Positions 1,216 to 14,664 of a DNA stretch of 16,935 nucleotides are shown one piece after another; the first letter of the stretch is position 1; the number at the start of each line of letters is the position of its first letter. The notes under the pieces are model-generated. The model saw only the letters and a list, made by a program, of their open reading frames with translations, was not told where the DNA came from and searched no databases. The translations under genes were made by a program, and so were the position numbers. Source of the DNA: Georgenia sp. Its GTDB lineage: Bacteria; Actinomycetota; Actinomycetes; Actinomycetales; Actinomycetaceae. Location: positions 1 to 16,935 of the forward strand of contig DAHVRG010000108.1 of the NCBI GenBank assembly GCA_027322565.1, given 5' to 3'.

Positions 1216-1219
<4 letters not shown>

Positions 1220-2685
1220 CGGGCCACCTCCAGGGCCTCGGAGGGCTGGGTCTGTGCGTGGAAGCGCAGCAGCGACTGCTCGAGCATCGCGGTGCGGTAG
1301 CGGGCCGAGGCCCGGTGGTCGTCCAGCGGGGTGCCCTCGCCGGCCAGCGTGGCGGCGGCCCGGGCGGCGGTCTGCGCGTCCCAGCCGGCGCCGGTGAGCA
1401 GCTCCTCGGTGGCGGTGGCCCGGACGGGGGTGGCGGCCACGCCGCCGAGCCCGATGCGCACCCGCGCCACGGTGTCGCCGTCCAGGTCCATGGCGATGGC
1501 CACGGCGACGGAGGAGATGTCGTCGAAGCGCCGCTTGGCGATCTTGTAGAAGGCGCTGTGCTGGGCCGGTGGCAGCGGGACGCGCACGGCCCGGATGATC
1601 TCCCCGGGGCGCCGGACGGTCTGCCGGTAACCGGTGAAGTAGTCGGCCAGCGGGACCTCGCGCTCACCCTCGGCGGAGGCGAGGACGAGGGTGGCCTCCA
1701 GGGCGAGCAGGACCGGGGCGGAGTCGCCGATGGGCGAGGCGGTGCCCAGGTTGCCGCCGAAGGTCGCGCTGTTGCGGATGAGGCGCGAGGCGAACTGCGG
1801 GAAGAGCTCCTCGAGCAGGGGCACCCGCCCGGCCAGGCCGTGCTCCACCTCGCTCAGGGTGAGGGCCGCTCCGATCTCCACCGCGTCCGGTCCGACGTCC
1901 AGGGTGCGCAGCTCGGGGAGCCGGTCGACGGCGAGCACGAGCGGCGGGCGGGCATGCCGGATGTTGACCTCGACGCCGAGGTCGGTGGCCCCGGCGACGA
2001 GGGCGGCCTCCGGGTGCTGCGCGTACCGGTCGAGCAGCTCGGCGAGGGAGGCCGGCCGGACGAACTCGGTGTCCTCGGTGACGACCCACGTGGGCAGCGG
2101 CGGCGGGGCCGGCAGCGTGCGGCGCGCCGCGAGCCGGTCCTCCACCTCGGGCAGGCCGACGGCGAAGGCGGCGTCGCGGATGGGCCGGTACCCCGTGCAG
2201 CGGCACAGGTTGCCGGACAGGGCGTGGAGGTCGAAGCCGTTGGGGCCCACCTCGTGGCTGTGCGCCTCGCCGTCCGCGGCCCCGGCACGCTCCGGGCGGT
2301 AGTACTCCGCCGCCATCGAGCAGACGAACCCGGGGGTGCAGTACCCGCACTGGGAGCCGCCGCGGGCGGCCATCTCGCGCTGGACCGGGTGGAGGTCGCC
2401 CTCCCGGCCCGCGCCCGGCGCCCGGCCCAGGCCCTCCGCGGTGACGATCTCCTGGCCCTCGTAGGCGAGCGCGGGTGGCAGGCACGCGTTGACCGCGGTC
2501 CACCGGGTGCGCTCCTCGCCGTCGGGACGGGCGACGAGCACGGCGCAGGCACCGCACTCCCCCTCCGCGCACCCCTCCTTGGCGCCGGTCAGGCCCTGCT
2601 GTCGCAGGTAGTCCAACAGCCGGACGTGCGGGGACACGTCCACCGTCATGGTCCGGCCGTTGACCGTCATGGTCCTGCGAGCCAT
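1216..2685 (-). CDS. xdhA: Xanthine dehydrogenase, 2Fe-2S/FAD subunit
   Basis: Small subunit (489 aa) of two-subunit xanthine dehydrogenase; it carries electrons from the Mo site to FAD and NAD+. Domain order: plant-type ferredoxin with Cys39, 44, 47 and 68; a second 2Fe-2S domain with Cys113 and 116 (QCGYCTPG) and Cys161 and 163 (NLCRCTGY); FAD domain about 205-380 with VAGATDLG at 230-237 and SATFGGNLGTASPIGD at 306-321; CO-dehydrogenase-type FAD C-terminal domain to the end. All eight cluster cysteines are present. The ATG at 2685 is preceded by GGGGAG about 8 nt upstream. First gene of a minus-strand operon with xdhB (4-nt ATGA overlap), divergent from allE. A well-formed promoter and an upstream box lie in the 166-nt gap, so purine-responsive control is likely. 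Confidence 0.96.
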
Positions 2686-2739: not shown

Positions 2740-2768
2740 ACCATAGTCCTCCCGCGAGCCGGACACAA
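2740..2768 (-). promoter_or_regulatory. Predicted xdhAB promoter
   Basis: Read on the minus strand: -35 TTGTGT (2768-2763), 17-nt spacer, -10 TATGGT (2745-2740). The predicted transcription start is near 2733, giving a leader of about 48 nt before the xdhA ATG. Hexamers and spacing fit the actinobacterial housekeeping sigma factor. The guaD promoter aligns to it without gaps. Confidence 0.65.
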
Positions 2769-2775
2769 CCAATTC

Positions 2776-2792
2776 GGAAATCGGATTTCACT
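2776..2792 (-). promoter_or_regulatory. Purine-regulon box, copy 1 (upstream of xdhA, between xdhA and allE)
   Basis: On the minus strand the box reads AGTGAAATCCGATTTCC and ends 7 nt before the xdhA -35. It contains a perfect inverted repeat, GAAATC-G-GATTTC on the plus strand (2777-2789). The copy before guaD (7937-7953) matches at 13 of 17 positions with the same orientation and spacing. Its centre is about 51 nt upstream of the predicted start of xdhA transcription, which is an activator-like position. For allE the same box would sit about where a -35 belongs. That the neighbouring IclR protein binds it is inference. Confidence 0.6.
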
Positions 2793-2803
2793 ATGCGGTA
2801 GTG
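2789..2803 (+). promoter_or_regulatory. Inverted repeat CACTA-N5-TAGTG in front of allE
   Basis: A perfect 5-bp inverted repeat (CACTA TGCGG TAGTG) abuts the purine-regulon box by one base and overlaps a possible allE -10 element, TAGTGT (2799-2804). A flanking TTCAC...GTGAA symmetry (2787-2807) surrounds it. It may be a second operator that separates control of allE from that of xdhA. No convincing -35 for allE was found, which would suit an activator-dependent promoter. Confidence 0.4.
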
Positions 2804-2851
2804 TGAACCTCGCCGTCCACCGCCGCACGCACGCCCGAAAGGACCCCTGGC

Positions 2852-3721
2852 ATGACCGAGCGCACCTACTGGGCCACCCACGGCGGGCACCCGCCGCAGA
2901 CCGACCTGCTCACCGACCGGGCCATGTTCCGCGAGGCGTACGCGGTCATCCCGCGCGGCACGCAGCGCGACATCGTCACCTCCAACCTCCCCCACTGGCA
3001 GGGCACCCGGCTGTGGGTGCTGGCCCGGCCGCTCACCGGCTTCGCCGAGACCTTCTCCCAGTACCTCATGGAGGTCACCCCCGGTGGCGGCTCCGACGCC
3101 CCGGAGGACGACCCGGACGCCGAGGCGGTGCTCTTCGTCCTCGAGGGCGAGCTCACCCTGACCGTCGGCCGCCCCGGCGCGGCCGGACGCCCTGCCGCGG
3201 GCGAGCACCGCATGTCGCCGGGCGGGTACGCGTTCCTGGCCCCGGGCGAGCACTGGACCGCCTGGAACCGGGGCGCCGAGCCGGTGCGGTTCATGTGGGT
3301 CCGCAAGGCCTACCAGCCCGTGACCGGCATCGAGGCGCCCGAGTCCTTCGTCACCAACGAGCAGGACGTCGTGCCCACCCCGATGCCGGGAACCGCCGGC
3401 CGGTGGGCGACCACCCGGTTCGTCGACCCCGACGACGTGCGCCACGACATGCACGTCAACATCGTCACCTTCCAGCCGGGCGGGATCATCCCCTTCGCCG
3501 AGACCCACGTCATGGAGCACGGCCTGTACGTCCTGCAGGGCCAGGCCGTATACCGGCTCAACGAGGACTGGGTGGAGGTGCAGGCCGGCGACTTCATGTG
3601 GCTGCGCGCCTTCTGCCCCCAGGCCTGCTACGCCGGCGGGCCCGAGCCGTTCCGCTACCTGCTGTACAAGGACGTCAACCGGCACGTGCCGCTGCGGCTC
3701 GGCGGAGCCGCGGCGCACTGA
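2852..3721 (+). CDS. allE: (S)-ureidoglycine aminohydrolase
   Basis: A bicupin enzyme of 289 aa that converts (S)-ureidoglycine to (S)-ureidoglycolate and ammonia, a late step of the allantoin branch of purine breakdown. The C-terminal cupin keeps the Mn2+ ligands of the family: E217, H219 and H223 in ETHVMEHG, and Q257 in CPQACYAGG. Their spacing (+2, +6, +40) is the same as in the plant enzyme (E235, H237, H241, Q275). The region 217-280 looks very close to E. coli AllE (YlbA). The N-terminal cupin (about 75-155) has lost most metal ligands, as is usual. The ATG at 2852 has GAAAGGA at 2837-2843. Divergent from xdhAB. Earlier steps (urate oxidase, allantoinase, allantoate hydrolase) are not in the window and are presumably to the left. 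Confidence 0.95.
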   Translation: MTERTYWATHGGHPPQTDLLTDRAMFREAYAVIPRGTQRDIVTSNLPHWQGTRLWVLARPLTGFAETFSQYLMEVTPGGGSDAPEDDPDAEAVLFVLEGELTLTVGRPGAAGRPAAGEHRMSPGGYAFLAPGEHWTAWNRGAEPVRFMWVRKAYQPVTGIEAPESFVTNEQDVVPTPMPGTAGRWATTRFVDPDDVRHDMHVNIVTFQPGGIIPFAETHVMEHGLYVLQGQAVYRLNEDWVEVQAGDFMWLRAFCPQACYAGGPEPFRYLLYKDVNRHVPLRLGGAAAH

Positions 3722-3762
3722 CGCCGCGCCGGGAACCGCGCCGCCGCTTCCCGGGATAGGCT

Positions 3763-3780
3763 TTTCACAGTGCGGAAGAC
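3763..3780 (+). promoter_or_regulatory. Possible autoregulatory site upstream of the IclR gene
   Basis: TTTCACAGTGCGGAAG (3763-3778) resembles TTTCACTATGCGGTAG before allE (2786-2801) at 13 of 16 positions. It also carries the halves TTTCAC and GGAAGAC found in the guaD box, but in swapped order. A possible -10, TAGGCT, lies just upstream at 3757-3762, so a bound protein would block transcription. No good -35 is visible. The 103-nt gap holds nothing else. Confidence 0.35.
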
Positions 3781-3824: not shown

Positions 3825-4577
3825 ATGGCGAACGGTTCCACCGTCCAGTCCGTGGACCGGGTGATCGACCTGCTCGAAGGGCTGACCGACCTGGGCGGCT
3901 CGGCCGCGCTGAGCGAGCTGGCCGAGGCCTCCGAGCTCCCGCTGCCGACCATCCACCGGCTCATGCGCACCCTCGTCGTGCGGGGCTACGCACGGCAGCT
4001 GCCCTCACGGCGCTATGCCCTGGGCCCCCGGCTCATCCGCCTCGGGGAGAGCGCGGGACGCCAGCTCGGCGCCGGTACCCGCCCCCACCTGGAGCGGCTC
4101 GCCCGGGAGCTGGGGGAGAGCGCCAACATGGCGATGATCGACCGCGACATGGCCGTCTACGTCGCCCAGGCCTCCTCCACCCACTCGATGCGGATGTTCA
4201 CCGAGGTGGGCCGGCGCGTCTACTGCCACTGCACCGGCGTGGGCAAGGTCGTCCTGGCGCAGCTGCCCGACGAGACGGTCCGGGAGATCGTCGGCCGGGT
4301 GGGGATGCCGCCGGCCACCGACCGGTCGATCACCACGCTCGACGCGCTGCTGGAGGAGATGGCCCGCGTGCGCGAGCAGGGCTATGCCGTCGACGACGGC
4401 GAGCAGGAGGTCGGGGTGCGCTGCTTCGCCGTGCCCGTGCCCGACGCCCCCACCCCCACCGCACTGTCCGTCTCCGGTCCGGCCGCGCGCGTGACCTTCG
4501 AGTTCGGCGAGGCCGCCCTGCCGCTGCTGCACGAGGTGGCCGCGGACATCTCCGCCGAGCTGCTCTCGGTCGGCTGA
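3825..4577 (+). CDS. IclR-family transcriptional regulator (likely purine/allantoin catabolism)
   Basis: A 250-aa protein with the two-domain IclR layout. A winged helix-turn-helix spans about 8-65 (AALSELAEASELPLPTIHRL, then wing RRYALGPRL). The effector domain spans about 80-245, with CHCTGVGKVVLAQLP and DDGEQEVGVRCFAVPV, both typical of the family's small-molecule pocket. The ATG at 3825 has a strong AAGGAGG ribosome site at 3811-3817. It lies between allE and sufE and faces the guaD operon. Known relatives such as AllR control allantoin genes in response to glyoxylate or allantoin; the effector here cannot be read from sequence. It is the best candidate to bind the boxes at 2776-2792 and 7937-7953. 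Confidence 0.9.
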   Translation: MANGSTVQSVDRVIDLLEGLTDLGGSAALSELAEASELPLPTIHRLMRTLVVRGYARQLPSRRYALGPRLIRLGESAGRQLGAGTRPHLERLARELGESANMAMIDRDMAVYVAQASSTHSMRMFTEVGRRVYCHCTGVGKVVLAQLPDETVREIVGRVGMPPATDRSITTLDALLEEMARVREQGYAVDDGEQEVGVRCFAVPVPDAPTPTALSVSGPAARVTFEFGEAALPLLHEVAADISAELLSVG

Positions 4578-4578
4578 G

Positions 4579-5022
4579 ATGCCCTCCGCCGCGCTGCCTT
4601 CCCGGTTCACCGAGCTCGTCGCCGAGTTCCACGCACTGCCACCCGCCGACCGCCTCCAGCTGCTCGCCGAGCTGGGTGACGAGCTGCCCGAGCTGCCCGC
4701 GCACCTGCGCTCCCACCCGCTCGAGCGGGTGACCGAGTGCCAGTCGCCGCTGTCCGTGCTGGCACTCGTCGAGGGCGAGGGTAGCGCGGCGGTGGTGCGG
4801 CTGCACTTCGCCGCACCACCGCACGCGCCCGTCACCCGCGGGTTCGCCGGGGTGCTCCACGCCACCCTCGACGGCGCCCCCGCGGGTGAGGTCCTCGCCC
4901 TGCCGGCCGACGCCACCGCCTCCTTCGGGCTGGAGGGTGTGGTCAGCCCGCTGCGGCTGCGCGGCTTCGCCGCCCTGCTGGCGCGGGTCCAGCGGCAGGT
5001 GGCCGCGGGTACCGCCGGCTAG
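4579..5022 (+). CDS. sufE: SufE-family sulfur acceptor protein
   Basis: A 147-aa protein of usual SufE length. SufE proteins accept persulfide sulfur from a cysteine desulfurase and pass it on, normally to the SUF Fe-S scaffold. The active cysteine is C54 in RVTECQSPL, matching E. coli SufE C51 and the family's CQS motif. The N-terminal FTELVAEFHALPPADRLQLL helix and the FGLEGVVSPLRLRGFAALL C-terminal stretch are also typical. It begins one base after the IclR stop with no visible ribosome site, so translation probably depends on coupling. No cysteine desulfurase or Suf genes are nearby. Its place beside xdhAB raises the possibility that it helps make Fe-S clusters or the Mo-sulfido ligand of xanthine dehydrogenase (inference). 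Its stop overlaps the permease stop by 4 nt, tail to tail. Confidence 0.85.
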   Translation: MPSAALPSRFTELVAEFHALPPADRLQLLAELGDELPELPAHLRSHPLERVTECQSPLSVLALVEGEGSAAVVRLHFAAPPHAPVTRGFAGVLHATLDGAPAGEVLALPADATASFGLEGVVSPLRLRGFAALLARVQRQVAAGTAG

Positions 5023-6431
5023 ATGTCGAAGAAGATGTAGCGCACCGCCAGCAGCGCGGCGACGAGGTAGAGGATCGGGTGGACCTTGCGGACCCCACCG
5101 GTGAGCGCCCGGATGACGCAGTAGGAGATGACCCCGAGGCTCACCCCGTTGGCGATGGAGAAGGTCAGCGGCATGGCGATGATCGCGAGGAAGGACGGCA
5201 CCCCCTCGGCGACCTCCTCCCAGGCGATGTGACGGATGCCGTCCATCATCATGGCGCCGACGAGGACGAGCACCGGCGCCGTCGCGGCCCCGGGGATGGC
5301 GCCTGCCAGCGGCCAGAGGAACATCGCCACGAGGAAGAGCAGGCCGGTCACCGAGGACGCCACCCCGGTGCGCCCGCCGTCCTGGATACCCGAGGCGCTC
5401 TCGACGTAGGTGCCGGTGGTCGACGTGCCCATGAACGCACCGACCATCGAGGCGACCCCGTCCATCGCGAAGGTCGTCTTGGCCCGGGGCATGTCCCCGC
5501 GCTCGTCGAGGTAGCCCATCTTCTGGGTGAGACCGGTCAGCGTCCCGGTCGCGTCGAAGAAGTCGACGAAGAAGAAGGTGAAGACGACGGTGAACAGCCC
5601 CAGCCCGAGCGCGCCGCCGATGTCGAGCTGCCCGACGAGCTCCGCGGGCCAGACCGGGGCGGCGACGACGCCGTCGGTGAACCCGGGGAAGGCCTGCAGC
5701 GCCCCGTCCGGGCCACCGGCGTAGACCTCGGCGCGGGTGAGGATCGCCAGCAGCGAGCCGGCGAGGATGCCCCACAGCAGCGCCCCCCTGACCTTGAGCT
5801 GGAGCAGGACCGCGGTGACGAGCAGCCCGACGACGGCCACCCACGCGGTCGGGGCCCCGAGGTCGCCGAGCGCGACGAGCGTCGCCTCGTTCGTGACGAC
5901 GATCCCCGCGCTGCGTAGCCCGAGGAAGGCGAGGAAGCAGCCGATCCCGGCCATGATGGCGAGCTTGAGGCTGTGCGGGATCGCCATGACGATGGCGCGG
6001 CGGGCCCCGACGACGCTGAGGACGACGAAGAGCAGGCCGGAGATGAACACCGCCCCCAGCGCGGTGCGCCACGGCACGCCCATACCGAGGACGACGGTGA
6101 AGGAGAAGAAGGCGTTGAGGCCCATCCCCGGGGCCTGGGCGAAGGGGTAACGCGCGACCAGCCCCATGAGTAGGCAGCCGACGCAGGCGGCGATCGCCGT
6201 CGTCATGAGCAGCTGGACGGGCGCGTCGGGCACGTCGATGGCCGCGCCGAGGACCTGGGGGTTGACGAAGAGGATGTAGCTCATCGTCAGGAAGGTGACG
6301 ACACCGGCGCGGACCTCCCGGGGGAGGGTGGACCCGGCGGCGGTGATCCCGAAGTAGCGGTCGAGCAGGCCGCCGGCGGTGCCGCGCGGTGCGGGCGGGG
6401 CGTCGCGCCCGGTCTCCTTGGTGGTGCTCAT
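5019..6431 (-). CDS. AzgA-type purine permease (NCS2 superfamily)
   Basis: A 470-aa polytopic membrane protein for proton-coupled import of purine bases. Seen: a short cytoplasmic N-terminus with LLDRYFGITAAGSTLPREV; FLTMSYILFVNPQVL; PGMGLNAFFSF at 101-111; TFFFVDFFDATGTLTGL in the second half; GTSTTGTYVESASG; and many hydrophobic segments over the whole length. These are hallmarks of the AzgA/PbuG group (adenine, guanine, hypoxanthine) rather than the uracil/xanthine group. The ATG at 6431 overlaps the guaD stop (ATGA) and is preceded by AGGAGA, so the two genes form an operon. A guanine or hypoxanthine substrate fits the partner enzyme; exact specificity is inferred. Confidence 0.93.
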   Translation of the reverse strand: MSTTKETGRDAPPAPRGTAGGLLDRYFGITAAGSTLPREVRAGVVTFLTMSYILFVNPQVLGAAIDVPDAPVQLLMTTAIAACVGCLLMGLVARYPFAQAPGMGLNAFFSFTVVLGMGVPWRTALGAVFISGLLFVVLSVVGARRAIVMAIPHSLKLAIMAGIGCFLAFLGLRSAGIVVTNEATLVALGDLGAPTAWVAVVGLLVTAVLLQLKVRGALLWGILAGSLLAILTRAEVYAGGPDGALQAFPGFTDGVVAAPVWPAELVGQLDIGGALGLGLFTVVFTFFFVDFFDATGTLTGLTQKMGYLDERGDMPRAKTTFAMDGVASMVGAFMGTSTTGTYVESASGIQDGGRTGVASSVTGLLFLVAMFLWPLAGAIPGAATAPVLVLVGAMMMDGIRHIAWEEVAEGVPSFLAIIAMPLTFSIANGVSLGVISYCVIRALTGGVRKVHPILYLVAALLAVRYIFFDI

Positions 6432-7759
6432 GATGTCTCCTGTGTCTCGGCGGCGACCGGCTCCGGTCGGGCCTCGGCGACGGGGTCGCCGCCGACCCAG
6501 ACGGCGACGACGTCCGCGGGGGTACCCAGGGAGAAGAGCTTGGCCAGCGCGTCGGTCGGGCTGCTCGCGTGCCGCAGCGCGACCTCGAGCGTCCCTCCCG
6601 CCTGCGGACGGACCCAGACGGCGTCGAGCTGCTTCCCGGGTGAGAGGTCGCCGACGTCGTCGGCGAGCCCCAGCGCCTGGGCGCCGGAGCGGGTGGCGAG
6701 GTGGAGCAGGTCGGCGGGGCCCAGGGCCACACCGGCGGGGCCGAGCAGGCGCTGCATGAAGTAGGCCTGCAGGCCCTCCTTGAGCAGGCAGAACCCGGTG
6801 CCCGCGCCGACGTCGGAGCCGAGCGCGACCCGCACCCCGGCGTCGAGGTGACGGCGCAGCGGGAACAGGCCGCTGCCGAGGGAGGAGTTCGACGTCGGGC
6901 AGTGGGCGACGGCGGCGCCGGCACCGGCGAGGACGGCGAGCTCGCGGTCGGTGGGGTGGACGTCGTGGGCGAAGACGGACCGTTCGGTCACCAGCCCGTG
7001 CCGGTCGTAGCTGTCGAGGTAGTCCGCCGCGTCGGGGAAGAAGGCGGCGACCTGGGCGATCTCGTCGGGGTTCTCGTTGAGGTGGGTGGTGAACCACCGT
7101 CCGTCCCCGCCGTCGGCGAGCAGCGCGGCGCAGACCTCGAGCATCTCGTCGGTCGTGGAGAGCGAGAAGCGGGGGGTGACCGCGTAGCGGAGGCGGCCGC
7201 GGCCGTGCCAGCGGGCGGCCAGCTCGCGGCCGGCGGCGAGCGCGTCGGCGGGGGTCTGGAGCAGCTCGGCGGGCAGCACCCGGTCACTGAGCACGAGCCC
7301 GGAGGTGACCCGCAGGCCCACCGCCTCCGCCTGGGCGAACAGCACGTCGACGGCGGCCGGGAAGTGCGACCCGAAGACGAGCGCCGTCGTCGTCCCGGAG
7401 CGGGTGAGCCCGCTGAGGAAGTCGCGGGCGACGGCGCGCGCGTAGCCGGGGTCGGCGAGGCGGATCTCCTCGGGCAGTGCGCACTCGCGCAGCCAGTCGA
7501 GCAGGGGCATGCCCAGCCCGCCGATGGCCCGCACCTGCGGGAAGTGGACGTGGGTGTCGACGAAGCCGGGGAGCAGCAGCCCGTCGCGCAGGTCGACGAC
7601 GTCGTCGTCCGGCCACGCCGCCCGGGCGCGGGCCGGGTCGGTACGGGCGACGATGACCCCGTCGTGGACCACGAGGGCACAGTCCTCCTCGGCCCGCAGG
7701 CCGTCGGTGTCCCCCAGCTCTCCTGGGGTGTCCAGGACGGTGGCCCGGTAGATCGTCAC
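6428..7759 (-). CDS. guaD: Guanine deaminase
   Basis: Cytoplasmic zinc amidohydrolase (443 aa) that deaminates guanine to xanthine and so feeds xanthine dehydrogenase. Seen: PGFVDTHVHFPQ with metal ligands H70 and H72; RFSLSTTDEML; HLNEN with H226; FAHDVH with H265; CPTSNSSLGSGLFP at 288-300; and GSDVGAGTG with D316. The PQ after HVHF and the SLGSGLFP loop separate guanine deaminase from cytosine and chlorohydrolase relatives. The start is GTG at 7759, chosen because an in-frame TGA lies three codons upstream; AGGAAG lies about 12 nt before it. First gene of the guaD-permease operon, with a clear promoter about 140 nt upstream and a long leader. Confidence 0.94.
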   Translation of the reverse strand: MTIYRATVLDTPGELGDTDGLRAEEDCALVVHDGVIVARTDPARARAAWPDDDVVDLRDGLLLPGFVDTHVHFPQVRAIGGLGMPLLDWLRECALPEEIRLADPGYARAVARDFLSGLTRSGTTTALVFGSHFPAAVDVLFAQAEAVGLRVTSGLVLSDRVLPAELLQTPADALAAGRELAARWHGRGRLRYAVTPRFSLSTTDEMLEVCAALLADGGDGRWFTTHLNENPDEIAQVAAFFPDAADYLDSYDRHGLVTERSVFAHDVHPTDRELAVLAGAGAAVAHCPTSNSSLGSGLFPLRRHLDAGVRVALGSDVGAGTGFCLLKEGLQAYFMQRLLGPAGVALGPADLLHLATRSGAQALGLADDVGDLSPGKQLDAVWVRPQAGGTLEVALRHASSPTDALAKLFSLGTPADVVAVWVGGDPVAEARPEPVAAETQETS

Positions 7760-7894
7760 CGATGCTCACTTCCTCGTCGAGCCCGGCACACAGCGCTGCG
7801 CTGTCGCTCACCCACCCCGGTCGCCGACCGGAGGCATGGTTTCGGTCCACTCGTCGGGTCGCCGGTTATCCATGCCGAACGACGACGCCGATGC
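7760..7894 (-). promoter_or_regulatory. Long guaD leader with two hairpins and a short open frame
   Basis: The predicted transcript starts near 7894, leaving about 135 nt before the guaD GTG. Two compact hairpins occur: CCGGTC-N3-GACCGG (7817-7831) and ACAGCG-N3-CGCTGT (7790-7804), each with a 6-bp perfect stem. An ATG-started frame of 21 codons runs from 7873 to 7808 and ends in TGA, but it has no visible ribosome site. No known riboswitch class was recognised. A control role is speculation. Confidence 0.35.
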
Positions 7895-7900
7895 CCCCGG

Positions 7901-7929
7901 ACCCTACCGGCGCCGGGCGCCGGTGACAA
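7901..7929 (-). promoter_or_regulatory. Predicted guaD-permease promoter
   Basis: Minus strand: -35 TTGTCA (7929-7924), 17-nt spacer, -10 TAGGGT (7906-7901). Both hexamers are good housekeeping matches. The spacer itself is a perfect palindrome, CCGGCGCC-G-GGCGCCGG (7907-7923). Confidence 0.7.
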
Positions 7930-7936
7930 GCATTTT

Positions 7937-7953
7937 GGAAGACGACTTTCACT
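7937..7953 (-). promoter_or_regulatory. Purine-regulon box, copy 2 (upstream of guaD)
   Basis: On the minus strand it reads AGTGAAAGTCGTCTTCC, 7 nt upstream of the -35, exactly as copy 1 does at xdhA. The consensus of both is AGTGAAAnnCGnnTTCC, a near-dyad centred on CG. The centre is about 51 nt upstream of the predicted start of transcription. Confidence 0.6.
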
Positions 7954-7978
7954 TCGTGGATTCTGGCGGGCACCCGGG

Positions 7979-13073: not shown

Positions 13074-13631
13074 TCACTCCCCCGCCCCGTAGGTGTGGAT
13101 CCGGGCCCCCGAGGCGTCGAAGATGCTGATCGTCTCAGCCGGTCGCGGGCCGACGGCGCTCATCGCGTGGGGCACGGCCGTGTCGAACTCCGCCGCCTCG
13201 CCGCGCTCGACGACGACCTCGTCCTCCCCGAGCCGCAGCCGGACCCGCCCCGAGAGGACGTAGAACCACTCGAAGCCCGCATGCACCCGCGGCGGCGGCG
13301 ACTCGCGACGTGGTGGGTAGGTGATCCGGTACGTCTGGACGGGGGAGTCCTCCGGCGCGAGCGGGACGATGACGAGGCCGTCGCGCCGGATGACGCGGCG
13401 CCGCACCCGCGGGTCGGGTCGCTGCGGCGCCACGAGGTCGTCGACCCGGATCCCGAGGCGGCGCGTCAGCGGCAAGAGGAGCTCCAGGCTCGCCTGCCGC
13501 TTGCCGGACTCGAGCCGGGAGAGCGTGCTCGGGGACATCCCGGCCTGCTCCGCGAGCTCGGTGAGCGTCCAGCCCCGTGCCTGCCGGGCCGCCCGCAGCC
13601 GGGCCCCCACCTGGGTCAGATCGGTCTCCAC
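13074..13631 (-). CDS. XRE-family regulator with C-terminal cupin domain
   Basis: A 185-aa DNA-binding protein. A helix-turn-helix of the Cro/C1 type spans about 6-62 (LRAARQARGWTLTELAEQAG, then SPSTLSRLESGKRQASLELLLPL). The C-terminal cupin (about 105-175) includes HAGFEWFYVLSGRVRLRLGEDEV and AAEFDTAVPHAMSAVG, a small-molecule sensing fold. The start GTG at 13631 was chosen because GGGAGG lies 8-13 nt upstream and the HTH begins soon after. It is divergent from the flavoprotein/methyltransferase pair and likely controls it and itself through the TTGC/GCAA half-sites in the 91-nt gap. The ligand is unknown. Confidence 0.9.
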   Translation of the reverse strand: METDLTQVGARLRAARQARGWTLTELAEQAGMSPSTLSRLESGKRQASLELLLPLTRRLGIRVDDLVAPQRPDPRVRRRVIRRDGLVIVPLAPEDSPVQTYRITYPPRRESPPPRVHAGFEWFYVLSGRVRLRLGEDEVVVERGEAAEFDTAVPHAMSAVGPRPAETISIFDASGARIHTYGAGE

Positions 13632-13665
13632 CGGATCGTCCCTCCCTGCTTCGACGGTGCACTGT

Positions 13666-13690
13666 TTGCCGATTTCGCAAGAACACTTGC
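13666..13690. promoter_or_regulatory. Candidate operator of the XRE-cupin regulator
   Basis: TTGC (13666), GCAA (13677) and TTGC (13687) are spaced 11 and 10 bp apart, one helical turn each. The last two form a perfect inverted repeat, GCAAG-AACA-CTTGC (13677-13690), and the first two a 15-nt dyad. It sits in the divergent gap, where a regulator would act on both genes. The -10/-35 elements could not be assigned with confidence. Confidence 0.5.
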
Positions 13691-13722
13691 CATCCTGCCA
13701 TAGCGGCGCGCACGCTGCTGCC

Positions 13723-14664
13723 ATGGACACCACCTGGGACGTCATCGTCATCGGCGGCAGTGCCGCCGGCCTCAGCGCCACCCTCACCCTCGCCCGCTCC
13801 CGGCGACGCGTGCTCGTCGTCGACGACGGGCTGCCACGCAACCGCTTCTCCCCGGCGGTGCACGGGGTCATCGGCCACGACGGCCGGCCCCCGGGCGAGT
13901 TGCTCGCGGCAGCACGGGCCGAGGCGACGGACTACGGGGCGGCGTTCCGCGAGGGCACCGTCGTCGAGGTGCAGCGGTCCGGGAGGGCGCTCACGGTCGT
14001 CCCGGAGACCGGCGACCCGCTCACCGCACGGGCGCTCGTCGTCGCCACCGGGATCACCGACCGGCTGCCGGACGTGCCGGGCCTGGCACCCCGCTGGGGC
14101 CGCAGCGTGCTCCACTGCCCGTACTGCCACGGCTGGGAGGTGCGGGACCGGCGTCTCGCGGTGCTCCTCACCTCGCCGCTCGCGTTCCACCAGGTCGCGC
14201 TCGTCCGCCAGCTGAGCGAGGACCTCGTCGTGTTCACCGGCGCCCTCGGCCCGCTCGACCCCGAGGTGGAGGAGCGGTGGCGGGCCCGCGGCATCACCCT
14301 CGTCCCGGACCCGGTCGTCGAGGTCCTCGGCGAGGGGACCGCGACCACCGGGCTGCGCACCTCGGCCGGCGAGGTCGTCCCTGCCGACGCCGTCTTCGTC
14401 TCCGCCACCCCCGTGCCCCGGGACGACTTCCTCGCCGGGCTCGGGCTGCAGCGCACCGAACGCGCCGGGGTGCAGCTCCTGGCGGTCGACCCGGCCGGGC
14501 GGACGAGCGACGAACGCATCTGGGCCGCAGGCAACGTCGTCGACCCCTTCGCCAACGTCGCGGCGTCGGCCGCGGCGGGTGGGACGGCGGGGGCCACGGT
14601 CAACTTCGCGCTCGCCGCGTCGGAGGCCGACGCCGCGGTCGGGGCGGTGAGCGGACGTGGCTGA
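13723..14664 (+). CDS. Thioredoxin-reductase-like FAD oxidoreductase with CPYC redox centre
   Basis: A 313-aa flavoprotein. FAD-binding: VIVIGGSAAGLSATL at 7-21, ALVVATGITDRLP at about 104-115, and IWAAGNVVDPFANVAASAAAGGTAG near the C-terminus. Redox pair: C132 and C135 in HCPYCHGWE. Where thioredoxin reductases carry the GxGxxA NADPH motif and HRR, this protein has LAVLLTSPLAFHQVALVRQL (145-164), so NADPH binding is doubtful. The CxxCHG form with a lost NADPH motif recalls dithiol oxidases of the GliT/HlmI type and related flavoproteins that use oxygen or another partner; this is a comparison from memory. The ATG at 13723 lacks a clear ribosome site. The downstream methyltransferase gene overlaps its end by 8 nt. 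Confidence 0.88.
   Translation: MDTTWDVIVIGGSAAGLSATLTLARSRRRVLVVDDGLPRNRFSPAVHGVIGHDGRPPGELLAAARAEATDYGAAFREGTVVEVQRSGRALTVVPETGDPLTARALVVATGITDRLPDVPGLAPRWGRSVLHCPYCHGWEVRDRRLAVLLTSPLAFHQVALVRQLSEDLVVFTGALGPLDPEVEERWRARGITLVPDPVVEVLGEGTATTGLRTSAGEVVPADAVFVSATPVPRDDFLAGLGLQRTERAGVQLLAVDPAGRTSDERIWAAGNVVDPFANVAASAAAGGTAGATVNFALAASEADAAVGAVSGRG

Follow-up and report, generated by a model that had tools for sequence, protein, structure and literature searches.

A predicted AllR-type operator before xdhA and guaD, and a conserved leader element, in a purine gene cluster of Georgenia sp.

Guanine becomes xanthine and xanthine becomes urate, and where the genes for such consecutive steps stand apart on a contig, each behind its own promoter and with a gene for an IclR-family regulator between them, the question arises of whether that regulator governs both and, if so, whether it holds them off or calls them on. 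The genes xdhA and guaD of Georgenia sp. are such a pair. The window, by which we mean the whole stretch of DNA analysed (16,935 nucleotides), is one entire contig (C215) of a 2.17-Mb MAG that is 57% complete, and its genes of interest are xdhA, a divergent allE, the IclR gene, a SufE-like gene, a purine permease gene and guaD, the main ones lying as follows.

1216..2685, minus strand: xdhA, xanthine dehydrogenase small subunit (Pfam; NCBIfam TIGR02963 at 442 bits, slightly below the cut-off of 467)
2852..3721, plus strand: allE, (S)-ureidoglycine aminohydrolase (NCBIfam NF008376, above cut-off)
3825..4577, plus strand: IclR-family regulator, of AllR type by its neighbourhood in relatives (Pfam HTH_IclR and IclR_C)
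5019..6431, minus strand: purine permease of the xanthine/uracil permease family (Pfam PF00860; frame 5019-6440)
6428..7759, minus strand: guaD, guanine deaminase (NCBIfam TIGR02967, above cut-off)

The same contig carries a gene for a regulator with HTH_3 and cupin domains (13074-13871, minus strand). The similarity between the xdhA and guaD promoters is real, and a regulon is well supported as a prediction: we put at roughly 0.8 the probability that the two genes share an operator and that it serves the AllR-type IclR protein whose gene lies between them. Activation from that operator, judged by sequence, is possible.

The resemblance had been noticed in a sequence-only reading, and its particulars hold. 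On the minus strand 2798-2740 and 7959-7901 give a gapless alignment of 59 nt (38 positions identical), they share a 17-nt box (2776-2792 and 7937-7953) with 13 identities between xdhA and guaD, and the -35/-10 pairs then proposed are the best pairs for both genes in a promoter scan. The 15-nt core of the box, TGAAANNCGNNTTCC, occurs with at most one mismatch at eight places in the MAG, exactly before xdhA and guaD and with one mismatch at the other six, while the reversed pattern, used as a control, gave no match. The consensus as first written was too narrow, its inner CG varying among relatives, and the box itself is only part of a longer site extending over 2775-2800 and 7936-7961. On the upstream side of the box stands an additional, degenerate half-site (TACC at xdhA, ATCC at guaD), and the whole approximates to TTYCRNNNNRYGRAA-N6-TTCYN, an operator of 26 bp with three alternating TTCC/GGAA half-sites. 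Half-sites two and three had been seen in the sequence-only reading; the remaining one, the operator before the IclR gene and the guaD leader had been overlooked.

2775..2800, minus strand: three-half-site operator before xdhA (TACCGCATAGTGAAATCCGATTTCCG), also between xdhA and the divergent allE; top matrix score in the window
3752..3777, minus strand: third operator, before the IclR gene, overlapping TAGGCT (3757-3762), a possible -10 box; second matrix score
7936..7961, minus strand: operator before guaD (ATCCACGAAGTGAAAGTCGTCTTCCA); third matrix score in the window
2740..2768, minus strand: predicted xdhA promoter TTGTGT-17-TATGGT, start point at about 2733 (promoter scan)
7901..7929, minus strand: predicted guaD promoter TTGTCA-17-TAGGGT, start point at about 7894 (promoter scan)
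2774..2804, plus strand: weak predicted allE promoter TCGGAA-19-TAGTGT (score 8.2)

Relative to the predicted start points the operators at xdhA and guaD both centre at -54.5, that at xdhA spanning -67 to -42 and apparently overlapping the weak predicted allE promoter as well; at the iclR operator the best promoter call is very weak (score 2.7).

The weight matrices by which these sites were ranked contain no site from the window. Loci with relatives of the IclR protein were fetched for the best 80 of 555 matches, among which the closest in named genomes belong to Georgenia and Isoptericola, and the DNA 5' of the gene was printed for 21; a 26-bp pattern recurs there before the iclR gene (for example TTCCGCCTTGTGGAATGCTGTTTCCA), and 13 seed sites were picked from these regions by eye. 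The resulting matrix places the window's xdhA (14.6), iclR (10.2) and guaD (7.8) positions first, second and third. Among 60 Markov sequences of the window's length the maximum was at least 14.6 in none, at least 10.2 in two and at least 7.8 in five: by score alone only the xdhA operator clears random sequence, the iclR and guaD scores being unexceptional. Adding 17 hits from the relatives' loci gave a matrix of 30 sites. By eye, these 30 aligned sites follow the three-box IclR pattern, given in passages of PMC8222616 as alternating boxes with one pair approximating TTYCRYW3RYGRAA and the other pair reversed, a layout predicted there for 32 IclR groups; the first half-sites at the window's xdhA and guaD are degenerate against that consensus. 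A sequence-only covariance model of the operator returned no match on its own genome, not even the window operators; the weight-matrix tests of the operator cover the window and the fetched loci.

Searching for the site before orthologous genes, as the sequence-only reading had proposed, bore it out, the operator being present before either xdhA or guaD in many relatives. In 200 family genomes an xdhA relative was found in 12 and a guaD relative in 10, the window genome and a few distant homologues counted. Scored with the matrix of 30 sites, upstream regions attain 12 bits in 8 of 17 cases in the family, where two more reach 10, and in 4 of 27 cases (xdhA) in a class-wide draw; among shuffled regions 11 of 2640 do so. 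The family figures exclude the window as well as three distant homologues, G045 (xdhA), G127 and G078 (guaD), none of which attains 12 bits; the class figures exclude the window and G424, G372, G484 and G244, where the match started inside the gene or there was no locus. Below 7 bits fall the family xdhA genes of G076, G139, G052 and G094 and the guaD genes of G007, G076 and G052, these three site-less guaD genes sitting downstream of xdhA on the same strand. A hold-out set was drawn later from xdhA genes of the order (72 of 386 genomes, with 62 loci new to the analysis) and scored with the leader described below masked, because the matrix also scores inside the leader in genus g47. Here 13 of 62 xdhA loci reach at least 12 bits; in two the site belongs to another promoter, which leaves 11 of 62 at xdhA.

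Where the operator sits relative to the promoter bears on what a protein bound to it might do. With the -10 box sought 8-59 nt after the operator and no expected distance imposed, it was found 28-31 nt past the operator in 19 of 27 xdhA/guaD promoters, where 1000 shuffles averaged 2.07 and never exceeded 6. The 27 include two sites below 12 bits (xdhA of G118, guaD of G107) and exclude the degenerate G076, G139 and G052 as well as G778 and G892, whose site stands behind a different promoter. This spacing is kept by 15 of 16 promoters in the discovery set and by 4 of 11 in the hold-out, where 4 of the 6 that also possess the leader retain it; the seven that depart from it lie at 35, 17, 8, 10, 22, 22 and 22 nt, the last five values being those of the five promoters without a leader. 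The operators at xdhA and guaD in relatives mostly centre near -55, a position common where the leader is present, yet not universal. At other genes the arrangement differs. Every hyi (8 of 8) and uraD (9 of 9) site examined lies past a TTGACN promoter, with its centre between +13.5 and +16.5. Of nine iclR sites in relatives six centre at -12.5 to -14.5 and three at -25.5 to -47.5, with weak promoter calls; three malic-enzyme sites have weak promoters and no common position. This set comprises 17 hyi/uraD, 9 iclR and 3 malic-enzyme sites, with L003 16215 and L005 6017 among those left out, and its hyi and uraD labels were given by position and first residues apart from hyi of L002 and uraD of L003, which the protein-family check covered.

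At the hyi and uraD sites, just after the start point, the IclR protein would occupy a repressor-type position. At xdhA and guaD we lean slightly towards activation over repression, in which case the same protein would be a repressor at hyi/uraD and an activator at xdhA/guaD. The suggestion of an activator-like site, already made in the sequence-only reading, gains from the recurrent position near -55, from poor -35 boxes in several relatives (TGGAGC, TGGATT) and from the contrast with hyi and uraD, and loses by the repression reported for a homologue in Streptomyces and by six close hold-out sites. The chief alternative, to which we allow somewhat less than an even chance, keeps the same operator and protein and makes the latter a repressor everywhere, blocking polymerase at -67 to -42 from the upstream part of the promoter. 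The footprint of the polymerase may extend to about -55, and the hyi and uraD sites are themselves repressor-like. Six hold-out promoters, of which five lack the leader, have an operator that ends 8-22 nt before the -10 box, where it overlaps or abuts the -35 region. The S. coelicolor homologue is moreover reported to repress the allantoin pathway, in a passage of PMC12772271 citing Navone 2015. Set against this are the poor -35 boxes and the narrow spacing of those 19 promoters, which come from several families and are placed more precisely than steric blocking needs, although common descent may account for part of that precision.

The neighbouring gene is the natural candidate for the protein in question. 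It has the HTH_IclR and IclR C-terminal domains (Pfam), and it falls short of the NCBIfam cut-offs for AllR (NF007548, 96 bits against 406) and BhcR (171 against 350); its AllR type is read from relatives, in which gene and sites lie among urate-to-glyoxylate genes. In these loci uraD and uricase (L003) and glxR and gcl (L002) are above their NCBIfam cut-offs, with hyi (L002) below at 224 bits against 353. A relative of the IclR protein is present in all seven genomes searched, six of which have the operator. That the operator belongs to some other IclR-family regulator is improbable: IclR motifs are alike, as passages of PMC8222616 indicate, and some genomes encode further IclR relatives, but the motif was defined upstream of the orthologous iclR gene itself, and that gene is found in all six site-bearing genomes tested and adjoins xdhA in G488. 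Hardly credible is the notion that the two stretches resemble each other merely in what promoters have in common, through an old duplication or by chance. Though the 59-nt match is partly -35 and -10 sequence and some random sequences matched the guaD score, the three best matrix hits all stand before purine-pathway or regulator genes, and conservation across families and the spacing statistics tell against it. What had been proposed as a purine regulon under the neighbouring IclR protein is, by sequence comparison, upheld as a predicted shared and conserved site, with an activator role possible.

Under the neighbouring IclR protein the regulon might work as follows. The operator would lie on the upstream flank of the xdhA and guaD promoters, its centre some 55 nt ahead of the start point, and before the iclR gene it would overlap a possible -10 box, permitting autoregulation. 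The action of the IclR protein would be altered by a pathway product, probably allantoate or glyoxylate, which are effectors of the Streptomyces AllR protein, and the oxidation of guanine and xanthine would be switched together with the later steps. Site, conservation, spacing and neighbourhood are there to be read in the DNA; binding by the IclR protein, its ligand and its sign we infer.

Behind the guaD promoter lies a second conserved feature, which is the more novel part of the locus.

7833..7886, minus strand: conserved leader element within the 5' untranslated region predicted for guaD (GTCGTCGTTCGGCATGGATAACC...AACCATGCC), after the guaD promoter

Its consensus, GCATGGAYAACC...AACCATGC, also occurs before xdhA in several Actinomycete families, the window's own xdhA being without it. 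Among family relatives all 10 xdhA promoters are followed by it, in G065 with an altered core, as are four of seven guaD promoters; the three guaD genes without it lie downstream of xdhA. In the hold-out it is found at 33 of 62 xdhA loci. The pattern GCATGGAYAACCN{8,38}CCATGC matches in 9 of 394 class genomes (reversed pattern, 4): one is the window, seven have it 10-61 nt upstream of the first start codon in an xdhA-like frame and the last looks like chance. A 24-base form allowing three mismatches gave 14 matches in 21 chosen genomes and none in the control, all of them before xdhA or, in the window, guaD.

No Rfam 15 family matches it in the window and 15 loci beyond chance-level hits, and an Rfam scan of the window returned only a tRNA above threshold, sub-threshold hits being judged chance. 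The arms are invariant in 22 aligned sequences, themselves selected by a pattern that fixes the arms; when the arms were left free, the sole variant to emerge was a U-G wobble, carried by two genomes of a single genus (shuffled controls, 2 of 1240). The left arm is paired in 30 of 47 lowest-energy folds, and the evidence for an RNA stem is thin. A conserved inner stem was considered and found no support, the interior being no stabler than shuffles (mean z +0.26, 47 sequences). An upstream open reading frame (ATG GAY AAC) was considered by eye; its later frame shifts with length. Over 55 sequences the leader measures 37-51 nt, with peaks at 40 (n=10) and 50 (n=18, mostly genus g47), and because of these two peaks a DNA operator of two half-sites with helical phasing is possible; so is a protein-binding site in either DNA or RNA. 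In the literature searched we know of no description of this element, nor of a riboswitch with guanine deaminase and xanthine dehydrogenase in Actinobacteria. A bolder conjecture, on balance unlikely, makes GTYGTTC-GCATGGAYAACC...AACCATGC, close to the 5' end of the guaD and xdhA messages, a cis-acting RNA not described before that senses a purine. It would work behind an IclR protein that represses the later steps and activates the first two, and entry into purine oxidation in Actinomycetes would then be controlled at two levels.

Other features upstream of xdhA were seen in passing. Short open reading frames fitting a pattern set by eye occur in 25 of 89 regions (among them L149, L150, L151, L153, L155, L156, L160, L166, L167, L168, L170, L204 and L211); 23 end in AHG followed by A, C or S and two in RLAGV or RLARV, and these frames, some beside the leader element, are possible leader peptides. 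A palindrome, TTCAACAGTTTGTTGA, appears in 4 of 89 regions, all of genus g39 (L152, L206, L243, L245); in L152 it sits past the AllR-type site and ahead of the -10 box. A similar TTCAAC..GTTGAA precedes the IclR gene in some Streptomyces loci.

If the prediction is true, the allantoin/glyoxylate regulon would extend up to the oxidation of guanine and xanthine, and the locus would offer a clean test case of one IclR protein repressing or activating according to the position of its site; the leader common to xdhA and guaD is in its turn a specific candidate for a new regulatory element. Known systems resemble these parts in some respects. The NMT1 xanthine riboswitch is, according to PMC7373994, likewise tied to purine-degradation genes including guanine deaminase and reported from alpha-, beta- and gamma-Proteobacteria, whereas the leader here has neither an Rfam hit nor a supported inner stem. 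XdhR of S. coelicolor also controls xanthine dehydrogenase genes (xdhABC) but is a different regulator and responds to ppGpp (passages of PMC6627660). The operators of PcaU, PobR and HmgR, as far as excerpts of PMC8222616 describe them, share the three half-sites and belong to a family that includes activators; here the half-site is TTCC/GGAA and not of the GTNCG type, and the targets are purine genes. The S. coelicolor AllR regulon, also of the IclR family, comes near as well: Streptomyces relatives of the window protein are 61-66% identical to it and its closer relatives have urate-to-glyoxylate neighbours, the difference being that here xdhA and guaD carry the predicted operator, and carry it upstream of the promoter.
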